From positions 1-34,233 of the forward strand of contig PLYI01000115.1 in NCBI GenBank assembly GCA_003151735.1: a DNA stretch of 34,233 nucleotides, read 5' to 3'. Of this stretch, positions 10,357-21,638 are shown one piece after another (position 1 is the first letter of the stretch; the number at the start of each line of letters is the position of its first letter). The position numbers and the translations under genes were made by a program. Source of the DNA: Candidatus Bathyarchaeota archaeon (lineage in GTDB: Archaea > Thermoproteota > Bathyarchaeia > Bathyarchaeales > Bathycorpusculaceae). Under the pieces are notes generated by a model. The model was given only the letters and a program-made list of their open reading frames with translations, was not told the DNA's origin and did no database searches.

Positions 10357-10460
10357 CGTATACAAAAGCATCGCCCAAACACACAAAATCTGTTCTGATT
10401 GTTTTCAAACCCCAGAACCGCTAAAACTATCGAAACTTCACGAACCTTATATATTCATTA
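10357..10460 (-). promoter_or_regulatory. Repeated leader element, copy A (extended)
   Basis: Read on the minus strand it starts with TGAATATATA, a good TATA box, and continues GTTCGTGAAGTTTCGATAG, a TTTGAAAA segment, and the core TGTGTTTGGGCGATGC then TTTTGTATACG (core 10357-10383). The whole block is similar to 19220-19323 in the same order. It lies in the leader of the alcohol dehydrogenase-nitroreductase operon, ending 77 bases before the ATG. It could be a regulatory RNA leader, a protein-binding region or a dispersed repeat. Confidence 0.7.
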
Positions 10461-10970
10461 CAAGCCAAAACACTAAATTAAAAAAAATAACTGGCGCCTG
10501 ACGCGATTTTTAGACTTAGCACTAAATAATCTGTTCCATAGCCTCAAAAAACAGTCGCTAGCAGAAAAAATATGGTCCGACAGTCTTGTTTTCATGTCTT
10601 TTAGGCGCTGTTTGGAGCCCAAAGGCTTTTTGAGTTCTCATTTTAGCAAGAATATTTTCCAAATTTGGGGAGACAGAAGCATTTTGAAGTTCTTCCACGC
10701 GAGCCTGCGATTTGCACTTCAGGGAATACCTGAAGCTTTCGGGAAAAAATGCGTCATTTGGTCTCTGTTAGCTACTTTTTTTAGCCGAAAAATCATCGAA
10801 CGTTAATTTCTTACATTTAAAAGTTAAAAATGGCCTCGGACATCTGCCTAAAATGAGTTAAACAAGTAGATTTAACTATGGCATTGCTTATTTTTGAAGG
10901 TACGGGTTACGAAGAAAGAAATTCTTATTTTTCTTAAAACTGAGGGAAGCTTATTTCAGCAAGGAGAGCA
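10461..10970. other. Intergenic region without recognised gene
   Basis: About 500 bp between the copy A promoter and the next candidate frame. It is AT-rich with many T runs. No convincing coding frame, tRNA or repeat was found. A TTG at 10971 with AAGGAG five bases upstream opens a 63-codon frame that ends just before the gene at 11166. Because it runs through copy B of the repeated element, it is considered doubtful. Confidence 0.4.
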
Positions 10971-11045
10971 TTGATTTCAAATAATCAAGAGGGGAGGACG
11001 GCGGACTTGGCGGAAATCGGATCAACGTTAGGGCGTATAAAAAAC

Positions 11046-11072
11046 TGTGTTTTGGGGATGCTTCTGTACACC
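11046..11072 (+). repeat. Repeated 27-nt element, copy B
   Basis: Core TGTGTTTTGGGGATGC then TTCTGTACACC, directly preceded by GTATAAAAAAC, which could be a TATA box. It lies 93 bases upstream of the nuclease-like gene and in the same orientation. The flanking bases resemble copy D (AAAACTGTGT before, CCG/CGG with GTTTT or GTTCTG after). Confidence 0.7.
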
Positions 11073-11165
11073 GTTTTCCGTAGTACAGTTCAAGTAGCGA
11101 CTCAAAAGGTAGTGAACTTTGGCGGTTTCTTGCTCTGTTTCTGTCTACTTTGCCGAGGCTAAATA

Positions 11166-11864
11166 ATGAGTGTTGAAAGAAAACTGGTAATTTCGCTCCT
11201 AAAATTAACTAAAAATGGGCCTGTTTTAGTTGAAAGTGTTAATGAAGAGGCACGGCTACCCTCAACTGTTACATGGGAATTGCTGGAAAAACTGCAAAAC
11301 GAAAACCTCATTTATCTAAAATCTGATAAAATCGAAGTAGACAGAACCAGCAGGCTCAAACTAGCCGTTAAAGTGGCATCTTTAGGCGCTGATGTCGAGC
11401 ACATCAGCAACCTGCTTTGCTGGCAGGAATTTGAAGAAATCGCTGCCTTAGCCCTCAAGAACAACGGCTACACAGTGCAAAACAACGTAAGGTTCAAACA
11501 TGAAAGAAAACGGTGGGAAATCGATGTGGTCGGCTGCAAAAAACCATTAGTCTTATGCATCGACTGCAAACATTGGCAACATGCAATCTCGTCATCGGCT
11601 CTAAAAAGAATAGTAGACTTGCAGACACAAAGAACCCTTGCCTTAGCCGATTCACTGCCCAACGTTAAGCTAAAACTTGAATGCGTAAAATGGGAAAGAG
11701 CCAAGTTTATTCCATCAGTGCTGTCACTTATCCCAAGCGCCTGCAAATTCTACGAGAGAATCCCTGTGGTACCCGTTCTTCAGCTTCAAGACTTCATATA
11801 CCAACTGCCGGCTCATACGGAAACACTGAAGTTTTATCTAAGAACTTTCACAACGTTAAGTTAG
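11166..11864 (+). CDS. Winged-helix plus restriction-endonuclease-like nuclease
   Basis: A 232-residue protein. Residues 1-60 look like a winged helix (VISLLKLTKNGPVLVESVNE, then TWELLEKLQNENLIYLKSDK). Residues 90-160 hold a PD-(D/E)xK nuclease core: FEEIAALALKNNGYTVQNNV, then WEIDVVG and VLCIDCKHWQ. The Asp of EIDVVG and the D-x-K of CIDCKHW are the expected catalytic residues of the Mrr/Hjc-like superfamily. The domain order suggests DNA binding and cleavage (DNA repair or defence), but the role is inferred. GAGG lies nine bases before the ATG. The 3' end overlaps the convergent ABC permease gene by nine bases. Copy B of the repeat lies in its leader. Confidence 0.78.
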   Translation: MSVERKLVISLLKLTKNGPVLVESVNEEARLPSTVTWELLEKLQNENLIYLKSDKIEVDRTSRLKLAVKVASLGADVEHISNLLCWQEFEEIAALALKNNGYTVQNNVRFKHERKRWEIDVVGCKKPLVLCIDCKHWQHAISSSALKRIVDLQTQRTLALADSLPNVKLKLECVKWERAKFIPSVLSLIPSACKFYERIPVVPVLQLQDFIYQLPAHTETLKFYLRTFTTLS

Positions 11865-13730
11865 GATTTTGAGGATTGAGGTTTTAGATAACCTGTACGC
11901 GGGGTAAAGACTAAAGAGGAACATTCCAATCAAAGCTGCAAGAAGCCACGCAGCTATCTCTGCAATGGTGATAGTTGTAACCAGAGGATTAGTCATTAAT
12001 ATCAGCAAAGTTGTGACAACGCCAAGTGAAATTCCCACTGCAAAGCTTGAAATAAGCACGCTTATGCTCTGAATAGCTGAAATAACGATGATTGTTCTTG
12101 GTTTGGCGCCTACAGCTCGTAATATCCCGAATTCTTGGTGCTGCTCATCCACCGCAAGCATCATGTAACCCACGAGACAAAGAACTGCGGAGGTTACAGT
12201 GAAAAGCGGGAGAAGCATGATTGTTTGCCAGCTGGATGATAGAAAAGCAGCGTTTTGTTCAACCACTCCGCTTAAGTCAAAGACATCTAAATCTGGGTCG
12301 GACGCTTGAACCAAGCTTCTAATCTGTGCAATATCCGCATTGCGGTTAGTTGAATTGTTCAGCTTAACCAAAAGCAGGTTAGGGCTGGAGATTCCCGTTG
12401 CATTTTCCAGTTTATCAATGGGCACATAAGTTACAAAGCCATTATTGACAGGATCAACGCAAATACCAACTATACGGAAGCTAGTATTTTGAAAACTTAT
12501 GCTTTCAAGTAACGGATCAGCAAGCACCACGTATTTGCTGGGATGAGGCGAATACATGGTTTGGGAAATTGAATCGCCGATAACAGCCTCCAAATCGTCG
12601 TTTCCGCTTAAAAATCGGCCTTTAATTGACCATGAACTTGCAAGTTTTTGCGGATTAACACCGATAACCAATGATTGACCTTCCCGACTGTCACCAACAG
12701 GGTACGTTGCCGACGTGTCAGGGTCAATAGTGAAGTTGCCAACTTCCTTAACCTGTTCCTTCACAATTAAACGTGAATCAACCAAACCCACATTCGGCAA
12801 CAAATCTAAATGCTCAATAACCGCTTTGGGAATGGCGAGATTTGGATCTGAATAATTAAAATTCCTTGTTTCCTTGGCTCCTGAAAACTTGGCTAAAAGT
12901 AGATTGTATTGGTTTCCCATACTGGTGTGAGCTATGGCGATTATGTGGCTGTCAACGGTTTTTTGAACCCATGAAATCGTTGTGCCGCTGGCTATGATTC
13001 CGCCTGCAACCGTAACCGTCAGCAAAATGAACACTATCGAGAGTAAAAAGATGATGCGAATGCTTGGTGATTGTCTACGAATCAAGCTTCTTAGAGCAAG
13101 CCGCCAACTTAAACCCGACCGAGGCAGAGTCTTATGCTTAGTTCCAACTGTTAAGCCATAGTAGTTGACGGATGAAAGTGCTTTTATCGGCGATATTTTG
13201 GAGGCTTTAAAAAGGGGCTGCAACCCAAAAAATATTGCAAGAACGAAAAACGCTACAAAAACTAAGGGTGCAAACCAGATAAACGGGGTTGTATAGCTAG
13301 AAAAAACAAGTTCACCAGCAACGAAATCTGCTAAAAACCCAAAAACTACGCCTAAAACACAGCCAAGAAATGTTACAATTAAAAGTTCAGTCATGAAGTA
13401 TCCGCCGACAAGGCTGTTTGGGCACCCAGCAGCCTTCATCAAACCGAAATCACGCGTTCTCTGCGCCATCATCAAGAAAACAATGAAGGCAGTAAGCACT
13501 GCTCCAATCACAAAAATCAATATGCCGATGAAGAGGATGAATTGGCTGAAAATAGCGGTTAAACCCAACGTTAAGGTGCCTGTGGCAGAAGCTAGCCCCA
13601 AGCCTAAACGCCTGCTAAACAGCAAAAGAAACAGCGTGGAGGCAACGCTCAACGTTAAAGTTGCGACGGTTAGGCTTGTTTGCAGTTTCCTTCGCAACAA
13701 ATCGTTAATTGGAAACCCAGAACTACTCAT
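11856..13730 (-). CDS. ABC transporter permease, MacB/FtsX type, two-domain
   Basis: A 624-residue integral membrane protein. The amino-terminal region has several helices (residues 20-180) including an FtsX core, with the coupling segment RTRDFGLMKAAGCP. A large extracytoplasmic domain (about 255-490) is followed by a second FtsX-like helix set (about 500-624) with the matching segment EFGILRAVGAKPRTI. So it is a fused pair of FtsX domains, as in LolC/E or MacB-like exporters that move lipids or peptides or transmit force across the membrane rather than import solutes. The ATG lies inside the end of the ATPase gene (eight-base overlap), showing a two-gene operon. The 3' end overlaps the nuclease gene. 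The substrate is unknown. Confidence 0.88.
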   Translation of the reverse strand: MSSSGFPINDLLRRKLQTSLTVATLTLSVASTLFLLLFSRRLGLGLASATGTLTLGLTAIFSQFILFIGILIFVIGAVLTAFIVFLMMAQRTRDFGLMKAAGCPNSLVGGYFMTELLIVTFLGCVLGVVFGFLADFVAGELVFSSYTTPFIWFAPLVFVAFFVLAIFFGLQPLFKASKISPIKALSSVNYYGLTVGTKHKTLPRSGLSWRLALRSLIRRQSPSIRIIFLLSIVFILLTVTVAGGIIASGTTISWVQKTVDSHIIAIAHTSMGNQYNLLLAKFSGAKETRNFNYSDPNLAIPKAVIEHLDLLPNVGLVDSRLIVKEQVKEVGNFTIDPDTSATYPVGDSREGQSLVIGVNPQKLASSWSIKGRFLSGNDDLEAVIGDSISQTMYSPHPSKYVVLADPLLESISFQNTSFRIVGICVDPVNNGFVTYVPIDKLENATGISSPNLLLVKLNNSTNRNADIAQIRSLVQASDPDLDVFDLSGVVEQNAAFLSSSWQTIMLLPLFTVTSAVLCLVGYMMLAVDEQHQEFGILRAVGAKPRTIIVISAIQSISVLISSFAVGISLGVVTTLLILMTNPLVTTITIAEIAAWLLAALIGMFLFSLYPAYRLSKTSILKILT

Positions 13731-14415
13731 GGTTACCCGCCAATTTACCTTCTTCTAAACAAAAAACCAAGTCCGCTAACTCTCGAATTTGCACATCATG
13801 TGTTGAAACAATGACAGTTTTTCCCTGAGACTTCAAAAATTGAAGTACCTGAACAATTTTCTGAGCGTTCTTAACATCCAAATTGCCCGTAGGTTCATCC
13901 GCAAGAATCAATTCAGGATCATTTGCTAATGCTCTGGCGAAAGCGACGCGTTGCTGTTCTCCGCCGCTCAGTTGCGAAGGAAAATGGTTTGCGCGATTCT
14001 CTAAACCTACGTTTTTTAGCAGTTCCTTGACGCGTTTTTCTATTTCTTGGTCAGGTTTTCGGGTCCACTCCATTGGAAAAGCAACATTTTCAGCTACCGT
14101 TAAAGTAGAAACTAAATTGTAGGCTTGAAAAACAAATCCTACATTGTTGCAGCGGAAATCTGAAAGATAATCCTCATCTTGCACCGTCAAATCCTGCCCA
14201 TTAACCACGATTTTTCCCTTGGTTGGTCTATCAATTCCACCTATAATGTTTAGCAGTGTGGTTTTGCCTGAGCCTGAAGAACCACATATCGCAACGAATT
14301 TTCCTTTGGGAATCTGCAGGTTTATGTCTTTTAGAACCTGTAGTTTGCCGTCGCCAATCTCGTAGGTTTTTTCTAATGCTTGTGTGTAGACCATTATTTC
14401 TGTTTGTTCAGCCAT
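13723..14415 (-). CDS. ABC transporter ATPase, LolD/MacB type
   Basis: A 230-residue ATP-binding subunit with Walker A GSSGSGKTT, Q-loop VFQAYNLV, signature LSGGEQQRVAFARAL, Walker B ELILADEPTGNLD and switch His in VIVSTHD. The sequence is of the LolD/MacB subfamily that pairs with FtsX-type permeases. It is first in the operon: AGGAG is visible before the ATG, and a TATA-like TTAATTTAAAGG lies on the minus strand around 14450-14462. It should energise the permease encoded directly downstream. Confidence 0.95.
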   Translation of the reverse strand: MAEQTEIMVYTQALEKTYEIGDGKLQVLKDINLQIPKGKFVAICGSSGSGKTTLLNIIGGIDRPTKGKIVVNGQDLTVQDEDYLSDFRCNNVGFVFQAYNLVSTLTVAENVAFPMEWTRKPDQEIEKRVKELLKNVGLENRANHFPSQLSGGEQQRVAFARALANDPELILADEPTGNLDVKNAQKIVQVLQFLKSQGKTVIVSTHDVQIRELADLVFCLEEGKLAGNHE

Positions 14416-14490
14416 TGTGGCTCTCCTGCACTTATCTGTAGGGTCAGGTTGCCTTTAAATTAATAATAAGCTTGACACGTTTGTTACGCG

Positions 14491-14952
14491 TTATTGCGGA
14501 TAACAAGTATCTATGTTTAGGTTGCCTCTGTCGCGTTTTAAAATTCGTACCTTATCCGGAAGCTTGTTTTTTTCCCAATCAGTCCAGCTAATTTCCTTAA
14601 AAAGCCACCGTTTGCCCAAGTGTGCGGCGACGACGGCGTGTTTTTTTTCGTTGCCTGAGGGGCAGAATAGGTCGAGGAAACGGAAGAGCTTGTCAATTTG
14701 TACTCTTGGGAAGTAAGCGTAGTAGCTGGCGTTTTTTACTTCAAACGCGTAGAAGTGTAGGCATTTCCGTGCCATGATGTCTGGCAGGGGATTGAGGCTT
14801 GGATTGCTGACTGGGACACGGACGGCGTTGTAGCCTTTTTTCTGTAGTAGCTTGACGAGTACGGTTTCGCTGTAGAAGCCTCTTTTGCGCCAACGCCTAA
14901 GTTTGATTCGGTCAATCTCTGTAGTCAACAATTTCCCTCTTGTATGCTGCAT
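14491..14952 (-). CDS. hjc: Archaeal Holliday junction resolvase
   Basis: A 153-residue protein. It shows the Hjc core: RKRGFYSETVLVKLLQKKGY, VRVPVSNPSLNPLPDIMARK and FYAFEVKNASYY. The Glu of YSE, the Asp of PDIMA and the E-x-K of FEVK are the metal-binding residues of the PD-(D/E)xK resolvases. It cuts four-way DNA junctions during recombination. The family is usually 120-150 residues; here a short basic leader (about 15 residues) precedes the core. The ATG lies about 22 bases downstream of a TATA box (AATTTTTATC on the minus strand), so the transcript is probably leaderless, which supports this start. Confidence 0.88.
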   Translation of the reverse strand: MQHTRGKLLTTEIDRIKLRRWRKRGFYSETVLVKLLQKKGYNAVRVPVSNPSLNPLPDIMARKCLHFYAFEVKNASYYAYFPRVQIDKLFRFLDLFCPSGNEKKHAVVAAHLGKRWLFKEISWTDWEKNKLPDKVRILKRDRGNLNIDTCYPQ

Positions 14953-15000
14953 CTATCGGGGTCTTGAGATAAAAATTGTTCCTCTGGAGAGTTGTGAAGC

Positions 15001-15027
15001 TGTGTTTAGGGGATGCTTTTGTATTCG
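15001..15027 (+). repeat. Repeated 27-nt element, copy C
   Basis: Core TGTGTTTAGGGGATGC then TTTTGTATTCG. It lies upstream of hjc but points away from it, and no gene follows in its direction for over 1.5 kb. So this copy is not simply a gene leader. Confidence 0.7.
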
Positions 15028-16634
15028 GCGAGTTCAGGTGGTGTGGCTGGAGTGCTCTGGTGACGGATAAAATTACTTGCAATACTAACACAACCATGTT
15101 CACCGATTATGTATTTGGCAACATCTACAACGAAAAAATATCCACTGTTTAGACTACACTAAGCACTTGAAAAGTCATCGCTGGCTCCCAGGGACCACAA
15201 AACAGCGTTTTCTAAGAGACAAAAAACTTTGCCAGCAACCCTCATGTGCATCAAAAAGCTCGTCTTTGGCGGAAAAAGATTACACCACAACAACTTTTGG
15301 GCACCAAGATCTGTAAAAAATCTTTTCGGGAAAGCAATCACAAAATAGCATATAGTAGATACCCCTAAATTATTAACAAAAGTCAGGATCAAAACCTCAA
15401 CCTCTAACAATAAGCACAGTTGCCAAAATCACGCTAATTACTCATAGAATTTCAGGAATAAAATTTTGTGTGCACAAATGGCAAAGTTTACTCTGCCAAG
15501 TAAAAAACATCCTTTTTGCTCGAAGGTAAGCCGAAAAAACAGGCTTTTGCTTCGCATGGAGATTTTCGGAGGTACTTATATGAGGCTCTAGTAATGTCCA
15601 TGCCAGTCAGTTTAGTCATAAGCGATAAAGTCATAATTGAGAGTATTTTGGTGTTTTAACCGTAAATCAGGCTCTTAAATTATCGTTTCCATTGAAAAAA
15701 ATGGCGGCTTTCTTCATTTAGCCTCTTTCGGAGCCAAACACTGGCTCTAATGTGAAGTTGAGCTAAAATAAGCCCAATTAGGGGTTATTCATGCGAAATA
15801 AGCTTAGCGATTAGCCGTAAGTTTTGAGCTAAAAAGTTGTGGATAATTTTGAGCCAGAGAGTTAAAAAATATTCTCATTTGTCCTCAACAGTTTTTTCAG
15901 AAATTTTTTTGCGTAACTGTTGAAATGCACTATGTGCCAGCTGTAAAAAATTGCTTCCGGCGGCAATCGTTTTGGTACAGTCGGTAGCCTTTGCAATATC
16001 CGATTTTCAAAATTTCCCATTTCGGCTGGTGGCGTGCTGAGAGGTCAACTTGGAGCCGTTAGACGCTTAAGCGATCAATTATTTAAAATTGCAGAAAATA
16101 ATTTGTGTTAAACTTTTCTTTCTTTTGTCAAGTTTTCTCTTAAGAAAAACAGGTTTGCTTAGCTTTGACTTTAGGAGCAACAGTGCCAAAGCGGCGGAAA
16201 CAATTTTTTAGAAAAAGCTGCCGTTTTCTGTGAAAAAATTATGGCTCTGTTTTTCTTGACGCCACTGGGGGTTTGTTTGTTCTTGATATCACGAGGAGTT
16301 AAAGTGCTTAACGAGTTGGTAAATAACCGTTTGTTGGACTTGTTTAGTGGAGGGTTGCAATATTGAATGCGTTAAGCCTGGCCTAATCTTCCCAATTTTT
16401 TGATGGATGATCGATAAGAAAAGAACTATCAGTGTGTTTGGTGAAGTGTGTACTACGTTTTAAAATAACCATCACTAAAGACAACAAGCAAAAAAACAAC
16501 AGCAAAACTTAATGTTTTCTTCAGGCTAGTTCAAACAAATCGAAGGGATAACGCCGAAGTGGACAAATTATGCAACATTCCTTTCAATATGAGGCTTAAA
16601 TTTATTTAACCAAAAACTCCAGAAAATGACAAAA
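15028..16634. other. Long intergenic region without recognised gene
   Basis: About 1.6 kb without a convincing gene on either strand. A minus-strand frame at 15159-15410 has a composition unlike a protein and no ribosome-binding site. Visible structures are an imperfect palindrome TGGCA ... TGCCA at 15479-15498, next to the palindrome-like TTTGTGTGCACAAA, and an inverted repeat CAACAGTT ... AACTGTTG around 15887-15923. Several T-rich runs occur near 15900 and 16240. Untranslated RNAs or operators are possible; none is recognised. Confidence 0.45.
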
Positions 16635-16801
16635 CTACATAGTCATTCTTTGATTAAGGTAGGCTTCCGCTTGGCCATTCACAGTGCGGTGATGTTCATC
16701 ATGTGCTTTTAGGGTGTCAAAAAGCATTCCGCAGTCTCGACAGCTGTATTTGCCTTCTGATGTAATTTCATATTCCAATGGCTTTTTATCTTCGTCAAAA
16801 A
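16635..16801 (-). CDS. Small zinc finger protein
   Basis: The frame is open from 16931, but its upstream part covers copy D of the repeated element and reads like non-coding sequence. The protein-like part starts near FDEDKKPLEYEITSEGKY and holds a C2H2 zinc finger, YSCRDCGMLFDTLKAHDEHH (C-x2-C-x9-H-x3-H), followed by RTVNGQAEAYL. The finger would bind one zinc ion. No ATG starts the short form, and a TTG in KPLEYE is the only good candidate, so the true amino terminus is unknown; the longer frame with ATG 16931 remains possible. Such single-finger proteins are common in archaea and of unknown role. Confidence 0.55.
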
Positions 16802-16815
16802 TAATTAAACAGAAC

Positions 16816-16842
16816 CGTATACAAAAGCATCCCCCAGACACA
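16816..16842 (-). repeat. Repeated 27-nt element, copy D
   Basis: On the minus strand: TGTGTCTGGGGGATGC then TTTTGTATACG, preceded by TGTAAAAC and followed by GTTCTG. It directly precedes the zinc finger frame, in the same orientation, and lies between the two divergent genes for the zinc finger and YjbQ. Confidence 0.7.
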
Positions 16843-16905
16843 GTTTTACATGAATCCTCGAAAACTTTTTCAGCTAAGCAAACGGATACAACCATGGTAC
16901 CTGCA

Positions 16906-17322
16906 ATGTCAAACTTCAAAATTATGAACAAAACTTACAAGTTCACCACGCAAGGAGAAATAGACTTCATAGACTTATCCGATAAAGTCCAACAAGAAGT
17001 CTCAAGTTCAGGAATAAAAAACGGCGAAGTCCACGTTTTCGCCCCACACGCAACCGGCATATTGATATTAACAGAAAACGATGCCGCATTACTTGCCGAC
17101 ATCAAAACTTTTCTTGAAGAATTAGCGCCAAAACATGGATCATACCAGCATCCATCTAATGCACACGCACATTTACGGTCGATGCTTCTTCCGCCAGACA
17201 AGACCCTGCCGATAATTAATGGACGCGTTGCATTTGGGACTTGGCAGTCGCTGCTTTTTGTAGAAACCGATGTTTATCCGCGGGAAAGGACAATAATTAT
17301 CCAGGTTATGGGCGAGCAATAA
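16906..17322 (+). CDS. YjbQ/UPF0047 family protein
   Basis: About 138 residues from the ATG at 16906, matching the compact YjbQ family. It contains TYKFTTQGEIDFIDLSDKV, the motif HVFAPHATGILILTENDAAL, the His-rich NAHAHLRSMLLPP and the end GRVAFGTWQSLLFVETDVYP with RERTIIIQVMGE. The conserved His residues form the putative metal site. Family members have been linked to weak thiamine-phosphate-synthase activity in bacteria, but the true role is unknown. ATGs at 16894 and 16924 are alternatives, with no clear ribosome-binding site for any. The promoter region is shared with the divergent zinc finger gene and contains copy D. Confidence 0.88.
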   Translation: MSNFKIMNKTYKFTTQGEIDFIDLSDKVQQEVSSSGIKNGEVHVFAPHATGILILTENDAALLADIKTFLEELAPKHGSYQHPSNAHAHLRSMLLPPDKTLPIINGRVAFGTWQSLLFVETDVYPRERTIIIQVMGEQ

Positions 17323-17887
17323 AATCTGGTCTTGAAGTTGATTTATAGTGTTTTACCTGATCAAAGACCAATCCACGCAAGTTTCCAGTTTTCGCTTCTC
17401 GTACAAGCAAAAAAGAGGCAATCGCCATTAAATTTTAACAATTTAATGTTAAATGCGCAACCTCTCACGTGTTTATTTAACTATTTATTGTAAAAAGTTA
17501 CCATTCGTTAAAGTTACGCGACCCAAAGACCCTAAACGATCCTGTTGAAGCAGTCAACTCAAATCGGAAAATTGGAAAAGTCCAGAAATTAAACCATAAC
17601 GCAGAAAACACCGTAAGAAACACAAAAAACCTTCTTACCCAAGCGACATACCGCCTGGAAAAGTCGCTTTCAAGCGTTAAATTCGAAGTTTCAAGCCTAA
17701 AGTCAGGGCAAACAAACCAAGGTCATCTCATTTACCACTAAAAAACCGTTAAATCGAGCTCAAAGTTAGTCTTATTTCTGAAAAAGTGACAGATCTCTTT
17801 AGAAAAAGAAAGGTTTACAGAGTCTTAACTTTTTCTTTAAGCGTTAACCTGTATGGATATATAATGTTCGCCATAATTCGAAAAAAA
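17323..17887. other. Intergenic region with hairpin and a start-less open frame
   Basis: A perfect nine-base inverted repeat (CATTAAATT, loop TTAAC, AATTTAATG) lies at 17426-17448 and could terminate the YjbQ transcript. From 17481 to 17741 the plus strand has an uninterrupted frame with protein-like content (for example EAVNSNRKIGKVQKLNHNAE and RLEKSLSSVKFEVSSLKS), but it holds no ATG, GTG or TTG. It may be a gene remnant or chance. The minus-strand nicotinamidase gene ends at 17888. Confidence 0.4.
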
Positions 17888-18628
17888 TTAGCCTTTTCGC
17901 TCTGTTCGAATTCGCTTAGCTGATCCTTTGGAACGCATGCGTGCCTTTTTCTTAACTTCAGCCCTCTGCGAAGGCTTCTCTTCTAATGCGTCAGGCTGCG
18001 TTTCTTCTATAGGCAATGCGTCAACGGCATCTGGAAAATCGTTTGCAGTGGCCTGTTGGGCACCGTTTTCAAGCATAGTTTCAATTGCCCTATCCACGTC
18101 ACCTGGCTCCAAGTTAAGGCCTAATGTTGCATCCCCAAGCACAACTGTTTCAAAACCAAGTTTTCGTGCATCAACAACAGTGTTTACCACACAGTAATCC
18201 GTCGCTAACCCACCAACGAAAAGCCGTTTAACACCCAGCACCCTTAACTCATGAGCAAGGCTAGTGCCATCAAAAGCGGAATAAGCTTCTCGTTCAGGGT
18301 TTGTAGCTTTTGAAATAATAATTGTGTGAGGAGGCAGTTTGAGGTCGGGGCTGAACTTTGCGCCAGATGTTTCCTGGATACAGTGAGGTGGCCATGGACC
18401 TCCTTGTGCTTTGAAAGATATGTGATTGGGTGGATGCCAATCTCTGGAAGCTAAAACATGTGCTTTCGCATCCTCAAAGCGCCGTATGTAATAGTTGATG
18501 ACGGGTATGATTTCGTCGGCATTTTCAATTGGTAGGGCTCCTCCTAGCAGAAAATCTTTTTGGATGTCTGTTATTAAAAGGGCATCAGGGTTTTTTATGA
18601 CATAGTTTTTACTCAAATAAGTCACCAT
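17888..18628 (-). CDS. pncA: Nicotinamidase with basic carboxyl tail
   Basis: A 246-residue isochorismatase-fold hydrolase that converts nicotinamide to nicotinate in NAD salvage. Catalytic Asp is in LITDIQKDFLLGGAL, the Lys in IIISKATN, and the nucleophilic Cys in GLATDYCVVNTV. The metal site is the DWHPPNHISF segment (D-x-H ... H). The enzyme core ends near residue 205. A tail of about 40 residues (EETQPDALEEKPSQR, then a Lys/Arg-rich end) is unlike the family and looks disordered and positively charged, perhaps for RNA or DNA association. It ends at a natural stop with no sign of a frameshift. It is the first of several NAD-related genes in this region. Confidence 0.93.
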   Translation of the reverse strand: MVTYLSKNYVIKNPDALLITDIQKDFLLGGALPIENADEIIPVINYYIRRFEDAKAHVLASRDWHPPNHISFKAQGGPWPPHCIQETSGAKFSPDLKLPPHTIIISKATNPEREAYSAFDGTSLAHELRVLGVKRLFVGGLATDYCVVNTVVDARKLGFETVVLGDATLGLNLEPGDVDRAIETMLENGAQQATANDFPDAVDALPIEETQPDALEEKPSQRAEVKKKARMRSKGSAKRIRTERKG

Positions 18629-19219
18629 TTTTAAAATTATAGTTTCCTTTAAGAAGTTTTGCTAAAATCCAAATTAAGTAAGAGAGTGAAGGTGTGGATA
18701 AACTTTTTTGTTGTTTTAATCTTTCGAGGCGAATTCAAATTATTTCTAAAATAACCTGTGTTTCTTCGCAACTCGCATCTGGAAAAAATAAACAGGGCTA
18801 TGGTTAATAGTATATGTTTACCTCATTTCTGCTAAAGTCACAATTGCATTTTTAACTTTTTAATGTAAAAAATGACTGTTCGGGAATTTTTCGTCTAAAC
18901 AAACGCAACTTTCAAGCTTAGCTGCCGAACTCTGGCTGACAAAAACCGAGAGCCAAGGCTGAAAAGGCAAAACAAGGCACTGTAAATAAGCAGAAAGCAC
19001 TTTAAAATCAGCTTAAACATGCTTCAAACAATGAATCTTTGATGTGTCGCCTTGTTCTTGGGGAGATTTTAGCCATTTTGAAGACAAAATACACTTTCTC
19101 AGTCTCCTTTGACCTATTTATTTCTCTTTCGACGACGCTTGTGAGGTAATGAGACCACGTTCTTTGAGTTTGCAAGCCCGCAGTTCTTCTTTCACATATT
19201 TTTCTCCTAAGTGCTTAGT
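18629..19219. other. Intergenic region upstream of the NAD(P)HX repair operon
   Basis: About 590 bp. T-rich, with no large coding frame. The right part (19118-19195, minus strand) holds a tiny candidate gene described separately. No tRNA or repeat copy was found in the rest. Confidence 0.4.
19118..19195 (-). CDS. Candidate 25-residue protein
   Basis: GTG start with AGGAG about ten bases upstream (19206-19210) and an AATATATATA box at 19225-19234 on the same strand, about 30 bases before the start. The product (MKEELRACKLKERGLITSQA and a short SSKEK tail) is charged and probably helical. The TATA box lies in the repeated element E and could serve both strands. The same frame stays open upstream through element E but without a normal start codon. 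It is reported for its complete set of expression signals; it may be chance. Confidence 0.3.
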   Translation of the reverse strand: MKEELRACKLKERGLITSQASSKEK

Positions 19220-19323
19220 ATGAATATATATAGTTCGTAAAGTTTCGATAATTTCGCCAGTTTTTAGGGAGTTTGAAAGGAATTTATCGCGAATTATGTG
19301 TTTGGGTGATGCTTTCGTATAAG
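19220..19323 (+). promoter_or_regulatory. Repeated leader element, copy E (extended)
   Basis: Starts with TATGAATATATATAG, a TATA box, then TTCGTAAAGTTTCGATAA, a TTTGAAAGG segment and the core TGTGTTTGGGTGATGC then TTTCGTATAAG (core 19297-19323). It is colinear with 10357-10460 on the other strand. It lies in the leader of the NAD(P)HX repair gene, whose ATG is at 19375, 51 bases after the core. Just downstream is a six-base hairpin, ATAAGC with GCTTAT. Confidence 0.7.
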
Positions 19324-20916: not shown

Positions 20917-21484
20917 CTCAGAACAACCAAAACCTGATTTGCCTGTTAGAATAACCATTTACCATGCTGCTCAAGATGACCCCAAAAAGAACACGGCACT
21001 GCGGCTTAAACGTCGAGGACTCGCGCGCATAGTTACAAGTACAAAGTTTCTGCCAAAGCGAGCCATCGTGCTTAACCCCTTTGGTGAGATAGCGTTTTCT
21101 CCAGCGGACAGGGAAAGGCTTGAACAATTTGGTTTGGCGGCGTTGGATTGCAGTTGGGAACATGCACAGAAAGTTATGGGAAAGCAAGTTAAGGGAACCA
21201 GCAGATGTTTACCCATTTTGATTGCAGGCAACCCTGTAAATTATGGAAAACTCACCAAACTGACAACTGCCGAAGCCATCGCAGCAGCTCTTTACATCGC
21301 TGGCTTTAAACAGGAAGCTGAGGATGTGCTTACAATTTTTTCTTGGGGACATACTTTTTTTGAGTTAAACCAAGCTTTTTTGGATAAATATGTTACTGCT
21401 AAGGACAGTGCGGACATTGTAGAAATGCAAACTTTACTTTTAAAGCCTCAGAAACGCGAGCCAAGTAAAAACGTGTTTGAATGA
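20906..21484 (+). CDS. tsr3: Tsr3, rRNA aminocarboxypropyltransferase (DUF367)
   Basis: A 192-residue protein with the family features ARIVTSTKFLPKRAIVLNPF, LAALDCSWEHAQKVMG and SRCLPILIAGNPVNYGKLTK, then TTAEAIAAALYIAGF. Tsr3 transfers the aminocarboxypropyl group from S-adenosylmethionine to a hypermodified residue of small-subunit rRNA. The GTG start overlaps the end of the NAD(P)HX repair gene by 11 bases, so coupling is likely, with AAGGTG upstream inside nnr. The acidic tail after residue 165 is short and looks disordered. The by-product is methylthioadenosine, which the MTA phosphorylase encoded 4 kb away would recycle. Confidence 0.93.
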   Translation: METDSEQPKPDLPVRITIYHAAQDDPKKNTALRLKRRGLARIVTSTKFLPKRAIVLNPFGEIAFSPADRERLEQFGLAALDCSWEHAQKVMGKQVKGTSRCLPILIAGNPVNYGKLTKLTTAEAIAAALYIAGFKQEAEDVLTIFSWGHTFFELNQAFLDKYVTAKDSADIVEMQTLLLKPQKREPSKNVFE

Positions 21485-21638
21485 TGATTTCGGATGAGTA
21501 AATGGGCATATTTGGATCCTAATAGGATCTCTATGCAGAAACCTAAAGGGGGGTAGGTGCTATTGGAGCTTTTGGGATTCAAAACGCGTTAGATAAGTAG
21601 TGAAAGGCTTATAGCCGACCATACGGAAAATGGTTTAA

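Follow-up and report, generated by a model that had tools for sequence, protein, structure and literature searches.

The 34,233-nt contig PLYI01000115.1 of a Candidatus Bathyarchaeota archaeon (assembly GCA_003151735.1), analysed at its full length and here called the window, carries five copies of a 27-nt element. Copy 1 (10357..10383, minus strand; E 1.3e-8), on the alcohol dehydrogenase side, recurs in relatives and points outward from the core described below. Copy 2 (11046..11072, plus strand; E 8.4e-8) is directed toward the core and lies 94 bp 5' of a NERD/Mrr-like nuclease gene (11166..11864, plus strand; Pfam PF08378/PF04471). Copy 3 (15001..15027, plus strand; E 8.4e-7) forms the left box of a conserved core unit, whose interior (15028..15190, plus strand) was delimited by alignment and is also present in other families. 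It lies 49 bp from the start of an Hjc-like Holliday junction resolvase gene (14491..14952, minus strand; Pfam PF01870), by synteny a frequent neighbour of the core unit, and is directed away from it. Copy 4 (16816..16842, minus strand; E 3.3e-9), on the UPF0047 side, is convergent with copy 3 and belongs to inverted repeat I3, and copy 5 (19297..19323, plus strand; E 3.0e-7) lies just 5' of the NAD(P)HX-repair (YjeF) gene and points outward from the core. On comparison with related genomes, we tentatively read these copies, with somewhat less than even confidence, as a polar, replication-linked element at a terminus-like locus, most likely a replication fork trap resembling Tus/Ter.

All five copies, first proposed in a sequence-only reading of the window, were found by direct check at these positions and on these strands. 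The divergence of one to four bases claimed for them also holds: four copies lie within three mismatches of the proposed consensus, and 11046(+) differs from it at four positions. Searched with that consensus at up to three mismatches, the window yielded four copies and 100 shuffles yielded none. A weight matrix built on the five copies gives them 44-52 bits, the next-best places in the window scoring 12 bits (at about 21472+) and then 5.6 bits. The number of copies in the window is far above chance. The 12-bit match is listed as a degenerate sixth copy (21472..21498, plus strand) at the end of a Tsr3-like gene. Three copies (10357, 16816 and 19297) lie inside mechanically called open reading frames (ORFs), an overlap that, for these window copies, probably reflects upstream extension of the ORFs. 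Inverted local homology of 82-83% connects 10776-10832 with 18847-18903 and 10424-10465 with 19213-19254 in the window; these segments are the upstream regions of both outward-pointing copies and look like a segment of about 0.5 kb duplicated in inverted orientation.

The element is not peculiar to the window, as emerged when the consensus was searched in its own genome and in relatives. In the whole 3.5 Mb own assembly a strict search returned only the four window copies, and a model of the element's sequence trained on 74 copies, applied to 150 of 2328 candidates, identified seven places with E<1e-6, five of which are the window copies. The sixth place, G000:C70:39603, lies between MazG and a gene, which we take to be Sm-like, beside the DNA polymerase D large subunit; the seventh, G000:C111:159843, lies between glutamate dehydrogenase and an AAA gene that is presumably RFC. 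The strict pattern occurs in 36 of 100 genomes, the own genome included, and a reversed control pattern in none of the 100. At E<=0.01 the model found matches in 125 of 256 genomes of the class Bathyarchaeia, in a class-wide search that used stricter filters and whose E-values are rough. All 32 genomes of the genus had matches, as did another 48 genomes of the family, in which at least 10 members had none, and other families of the class gave weaker matches. Matching genomes hold 1-18 matches each; genome G009, with 17-18 on many contigs, has about twice the usual number. A degenerate pattern was found in 76 stretches named Bathyarchaeota, Bathycorpusculum or by umbrella names (Nitrososphaerota, Crenarchaeota, MCG-6) that we take to denote the same group, and viral contigs gave no exact match to it.

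The logo over 106 copies, AAA[CG]TGTGTTTkGknGATGCTTTTGTATAC[GA]G, has sharp edges. These copies were found in element loci with at most five mismatches to the seed, repeated cores being dropped, and 15 of them lie mostly inside mechanical ORFs of at least 150 aa. The consensus is non-palindromic, with at most 8 self-complementary matches in 26, and appears to act as DNA rather than RNA. Certain gene borders recur. NERD genes have a copy on their own strand near the start in 14 of 16 loci, and YjeF genes in 12 of 17; the copy is directed away from the gene in 8 of 14 cases for UPF0047 genes and in 10 of 20 for Hjc-like genes; and a clear copy follows the Tsr3-like gene in 6 of 17. In these counts a gene truncated at the end of a locus, or an ORF extended mechanically, was scored as a miss. 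Four copies were said to face a gene in the same direction, which is correct for the window and fails in the relatives, where the copies at Hjc-like and UPF0047 genes point away. Some copies lie between the convergent 3' ends of genes.

The most constant part of the locus is the core unit, which in relatives consists of a convergent pair of copies flanking a conserved interior at a spacing of about 210-310 nt. In the first loci all nine pairs of neighbours closer than 400 bp were convergent, 211-251 nt apart, and in 27 genomes a hand count gave 17 of 18 neighbours within 400 bp as convergent, the exception being a tandem pair in G004. Outside the family, 14 genomes of the same order were tested, and five of them, from families f2, f4 and f6, have a convergent pair as well. 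Genome G173 has the pair and no further copy at E<=1e-3, and at the same threshold G037 and G165 have one further copy each, directed toward the pair; a copy about 40 kb from the core, G007:C3:204311(-), also has the terminus-type orientation. The AT content of the interior exceeds that of its surroundings slightly at most, and the motifs CTGGTGA, AATAC-N5-CAACCA, CAACATC, AAAAATAT and TTAGnCTACACTAA are common to 15 aligned sequences. Among the five other-family units, GCCTACA is present in all five and TAATAC in three; an Hjc-like gene adjoins two of them, a third adjoins LonB with a trace of Hjc, and the remaining two have no neighbour from the query gene set. The core 15-mer was not found in the literature searched.

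In the window itself the right-hand box, which lies about 230 nt away in relatives, was not recognisable, and the next convergent partner of 15001(+) is 16816(-), 1.8 kb away. Between them a long gap without a recognised gene (15028..16634) extends from the Hjc-like gene to the DUF7128-like and UPF0047 genes; within 15028-16600, about 1.6 kb, no listed ORF exceeds 83 aa. A 404-aa family without a Pfam match occupies the equivalent gap in some relatives, and in the small-genome relatives L286, L287 and L288 the core pair is separated from the UPF0047 gene by an ORF of 182-191 aa, which we take to encode a GNAT acetyltransferase.

The orientation of the copies was compared with a predicted origin of replication. 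The common motif of the archaeal origin recognition box (ORB) is given as TCCA-GAAA with a G-string in an excerpt of PMC4164010, and here we use oriC1 for the ORB-type origin beside the better-scoring Orc1/Cdc6 gene of a genome. All 12 genomes examined have ORB matches within about 2 kb of that gene, which account for 24 of the 35 matches in total, and in 7 of these genomes two of the matches converge at a spacing of about 190-240 nt. The total of 35 is not far above the 24 of a reversed control, and the evidence lies in the position of the matches, not in their total count. The own genome has such a pair at G000:C70:29702(+)/29961(-). Orc1/Cdc6 genes number two per genome as a rule.

The pair in the own genome belongs to a predicted canonical oriC1 in locus L150 (2993-3270, that is G000:C70:29702-29979), where two ORB-like boxes converge about 240 nt apart beside an Orc1/Cdc6 gene; its other neighbour is presumably the DP1 gene. 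When three loci beside Cdc6 genes were read for repeats, the ORB pair was visible only as a short inverted repeat in L150.

The element itself was first read as an ORB cluster marking the main origin, and this reading was dropped when ORB matches were found beside a Cdc6 gene on another contig. The element pair does resemble archaeal ORBs in being inverted and about 230 nt apart. Unlike an ORB origin, however, the window has no ORB match with up to three mismatches and no adjacent initiator gene: it contains no Cdc6 match, and the two Cdc6_C matches in the own genome are on contigs other than the window. Since ORB matches adjoin the Cdc6 gene elsewhere, the element is not the ORB by this motif. 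Of 14 words compared between oriC1 and the core interior, only AAATAT was common, in one genome.

Relative to oriC1 the dispersed copies have a single polarity. Among copies with E<=1e-3 that lie on the oriC1 contig and outside the window-type locus, 37 of 37, in 18 genomes, point away from oriC1, on both sides. Thirty-six of them come from full listings of 27 genomes, 17 with such copies and 10 without; the G170 copy is one among the matches listed, the other three of that genome not being included. When recurrent sites 8-25 kb from the origin are removed, 17 of 17 copies are polar, and strict polarity reaches up to 300 kb from oriC1. The genes in eight loci on oriC1 contigs have no such polarity, 23 of 54 pointing away. 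In the single-contig genomes G096 and G092, where oriC1 was placed by Cdc6 alone, the match with E<=1e-3 agrees in each; that of G096, its only one, lies 83 kb from Cdc6, and the locus is not recognisable there. Among weaker matches (E 0.001-0.05), G000:C70:68640, G168:400891, G172:1275284, G071:691658 and G071:1469320 agree, and G172:964254, G037:776188 and, if it lies outside the locus, G092:1076597 disagree.

The locus itself lies opposite oriC1 in all five genomes that have it in recognisable form on the oriC1 contig. Expressed as a fraction of the genome, its distance from oriC1 is 0.500 in G172 and 0.496 in G071, both single contigs, the latter value being based on weak matches (E 0.001-0.003) 1.4 kb apart. 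It is 0.498 in G173, 0.489 in G037 and 0.487 in G168, where the calculation used a rounded total size and took the remaining contigs to be part of one circle. As the window comprises one entire 34-kb contig, the distance test covers its relatives.

Fork traps that confine fork fusion are known from the Tus/Ter system of E. coli and the RTP/Ter system of B. subtilis. The ter sites of E. coli are oriented by replichore (PMC10331603, in excerpt). Bacterial Ter sites and steering sequences are both recognised by polarity along the arms combined with convergence opposite the origin, and the terminus-type reading of the present element is drawn from this combination. As in Tus/Ter and RTP/Ter, the element is non-palindromic, is present in few copies per chromosome, has opposite orientations on the two arms and converges opposite the origin. 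Unlike those systems, it is archaeal, has copies near the origin, outward copies at the locus and a conserved interior. The likeness drawn here is one of layout. In the proposed mechanism the window locus would be a replication terminus region, and the element a polar DNA site bound by a protein and tied to chromosome replication in Bathyarchaeia. The bound protein would leave a box passable for the fork coming from oriC1 and make it obstructive for the opposite fork, and the convergent pair would confine fork fusion to the interior, as in the bacterial traps. A softer form with the same geometry would have the boxes guide a machine for segregation or resolution instead of stopping forks.

Several observations weigh against the terminus-type reading. 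The outer copies 10357(-) and 19297(+), which recur in the genus, lack the origin polarity seen on both arms outside the locus; they point away from the core and would meet incoming forks head-on. The copies about 10 kb from oriC1 have no obvious use in a fork trap. Many of the 37 polar sites are orthologous, and their count therefore overstates independence. The placement opposite oriC1 is sensitive to the assumption of one circle, since on its own contig alone G173 would be at 0.32 and G037 at 0.46. Genome G092 (88% complete) does not fit, its nearest weak matches lying at 0.23 and not as a close convergent pair. GC skew, tried three ways, did not show a terminus at the locus. After correction for genes the skew has a weak origin-like sign within 60 kb of the locus (-0.025, standard error (s.e.) 0.010, n 507), fading to -0.008 (s.e. 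0.008, n 819) at 100 kb and -0.005 (s.e. 0.006, n 1341) at 200 kb; at oriC1 it is -0.042 (s.e. 0.030, n 54), with the sign not established. Genes less than 6 kb from the locus and ORFs with at most 20 G+C third positions were left out of this analysis. Coverage tags, taken from the contig titles of JAMDCQ and JAUWJK, are highest on the locus contig in both metagenome-assembled genomes, although few contigs carry them: 7.95 in one, where the oriC1 contig has 6.59 and a third contig 6.96, and 163 in the other, where another element contig has 101.

The outward-pointing outer copies, the copies near oriC1 and these skew and coverage values speak instead for a second origin opposite oriC1, in which the boxes would serve a non-ORB initiator, perhaps the second Orc1/Cdc6 paralogue, and the dispersed boxes would be regulatory. 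We consider this alternative unlikely, though it deserves a serious hearing. Boxes inverted and about 230 nt apart recall the convergent ORB matches of oriC1; genomes usually have two Orc1/Cdc6 genes, and in G056 an element lies about 4 kb from the second paralogue. The outer copies face outward from the locus just as the copies around oriC1 face outward from that origin. The cumulative skew of G016 reaches its minima about 47-51 kb from the locus, and in G013 the minimum lies at the locus in the gene-corrected form and not in the raw one. The minima lie elsewhere in G025, G014, G007 and G019, however, the interior has at most a slight excess of AT, and the window has no Cdc6 match. Initiator boxes would not be expected to show strict polarity up to 300 kb from oriC1, and several copies are directed toward the locus rather than away from it, namely the core boxes, those at the NERD and UPF0047 genes, and G007:C3:204311.

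A rather improbable alternative is that the copies are polar loading or steering sites, akin to FtsK orienting polar sequences (KOPS), archaeal short polarized sequences (ASPS) or parS, for a segregation or dimer-resolution machine, and converge at a dif-like or centromere-like core. The polarity from origin to terminus, the convergence opposite the origin and the conserved interior would all suit such sites. There is also a precedent, since in Thermococcales, according to an excerpt of PMC2958812, ASPS point at archaeal dif sites and inverted repeats flank dif. ASPS are four nucleotides long in the same source, whereas the element has 27 bp and is rare, with few matches per genome in place of a frequent short word. 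The element is of the 28-bp scale of archaeal and bacterial dif and would share with them a position in the terminus region; unlike dif, it is multi-copy and non-palindromic. A dif site inside the core interior was considered and rejected: the window has an 8/11 repeat there, but the alignment of 15 rows preserves no dif-like repeat of the 11-6-11 form.

That the element is the operator of a transcription regulon, placed about 30-100 bp upstream of gene starts, seems improbable. Its recurrent positions upstream of YjeF, NERD, Hjc-like and UPF0047 genes favour this, but the orientation to genes varies by site and includes the copies between convergent 3' ends, the gene set looks incoherent, the conservation seems beyond an operator's need, and the copies are polar to the origin. 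The regulatory leader proposed in the sequence-only reading was rejected because of the same variation in orientation. A short mobile repeat or part of a non-coding RNA, both also proposed there, would account for dispersed copies and inverted pairs but is hardly credible, as positions are common to several species, as expected of neither an insertion sequence nor a miniature inverted-repeat transposable element, copies have one polarity on oriC1 contigs, viral contigs gave no exact match to the degenerate pattern, Rfam covariance models gave no match, and the RNAalifold consensus fold has 8 pairs with a covariation term of -0.08, that is, no covarying fold. The earlier view that the element resembles neither a CRISPR nor an insertion sequence is borne out, and it is a conserved element.

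To our knowledge, how archaeal replication ends is largely an open matter, as is the existence of a programmed terminus in any archaeon, and no paper on a Bathyarchaeial origin or terminus was among the matches listed in the literature search. In its most specific form the terminus-type reading describes a Bathyarchaeial fork trap made up of polar arrest sites of 27 bp, in which a conserved pair converges beside an Hjc gene, across the chromosome from the origin. Such a trap would act on MCM-driven forks and would have arisen independently of Tus/Ter; so detailed a picture is possible, yet we hold it as doubtful. If the locus is instead a second origin, Bathyarchaeia would have a replicator with a non-ORB recognition box. 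The polar site, its convergent core and the predicted ORB origins provide exact coordinates in a mostly uncultured class.

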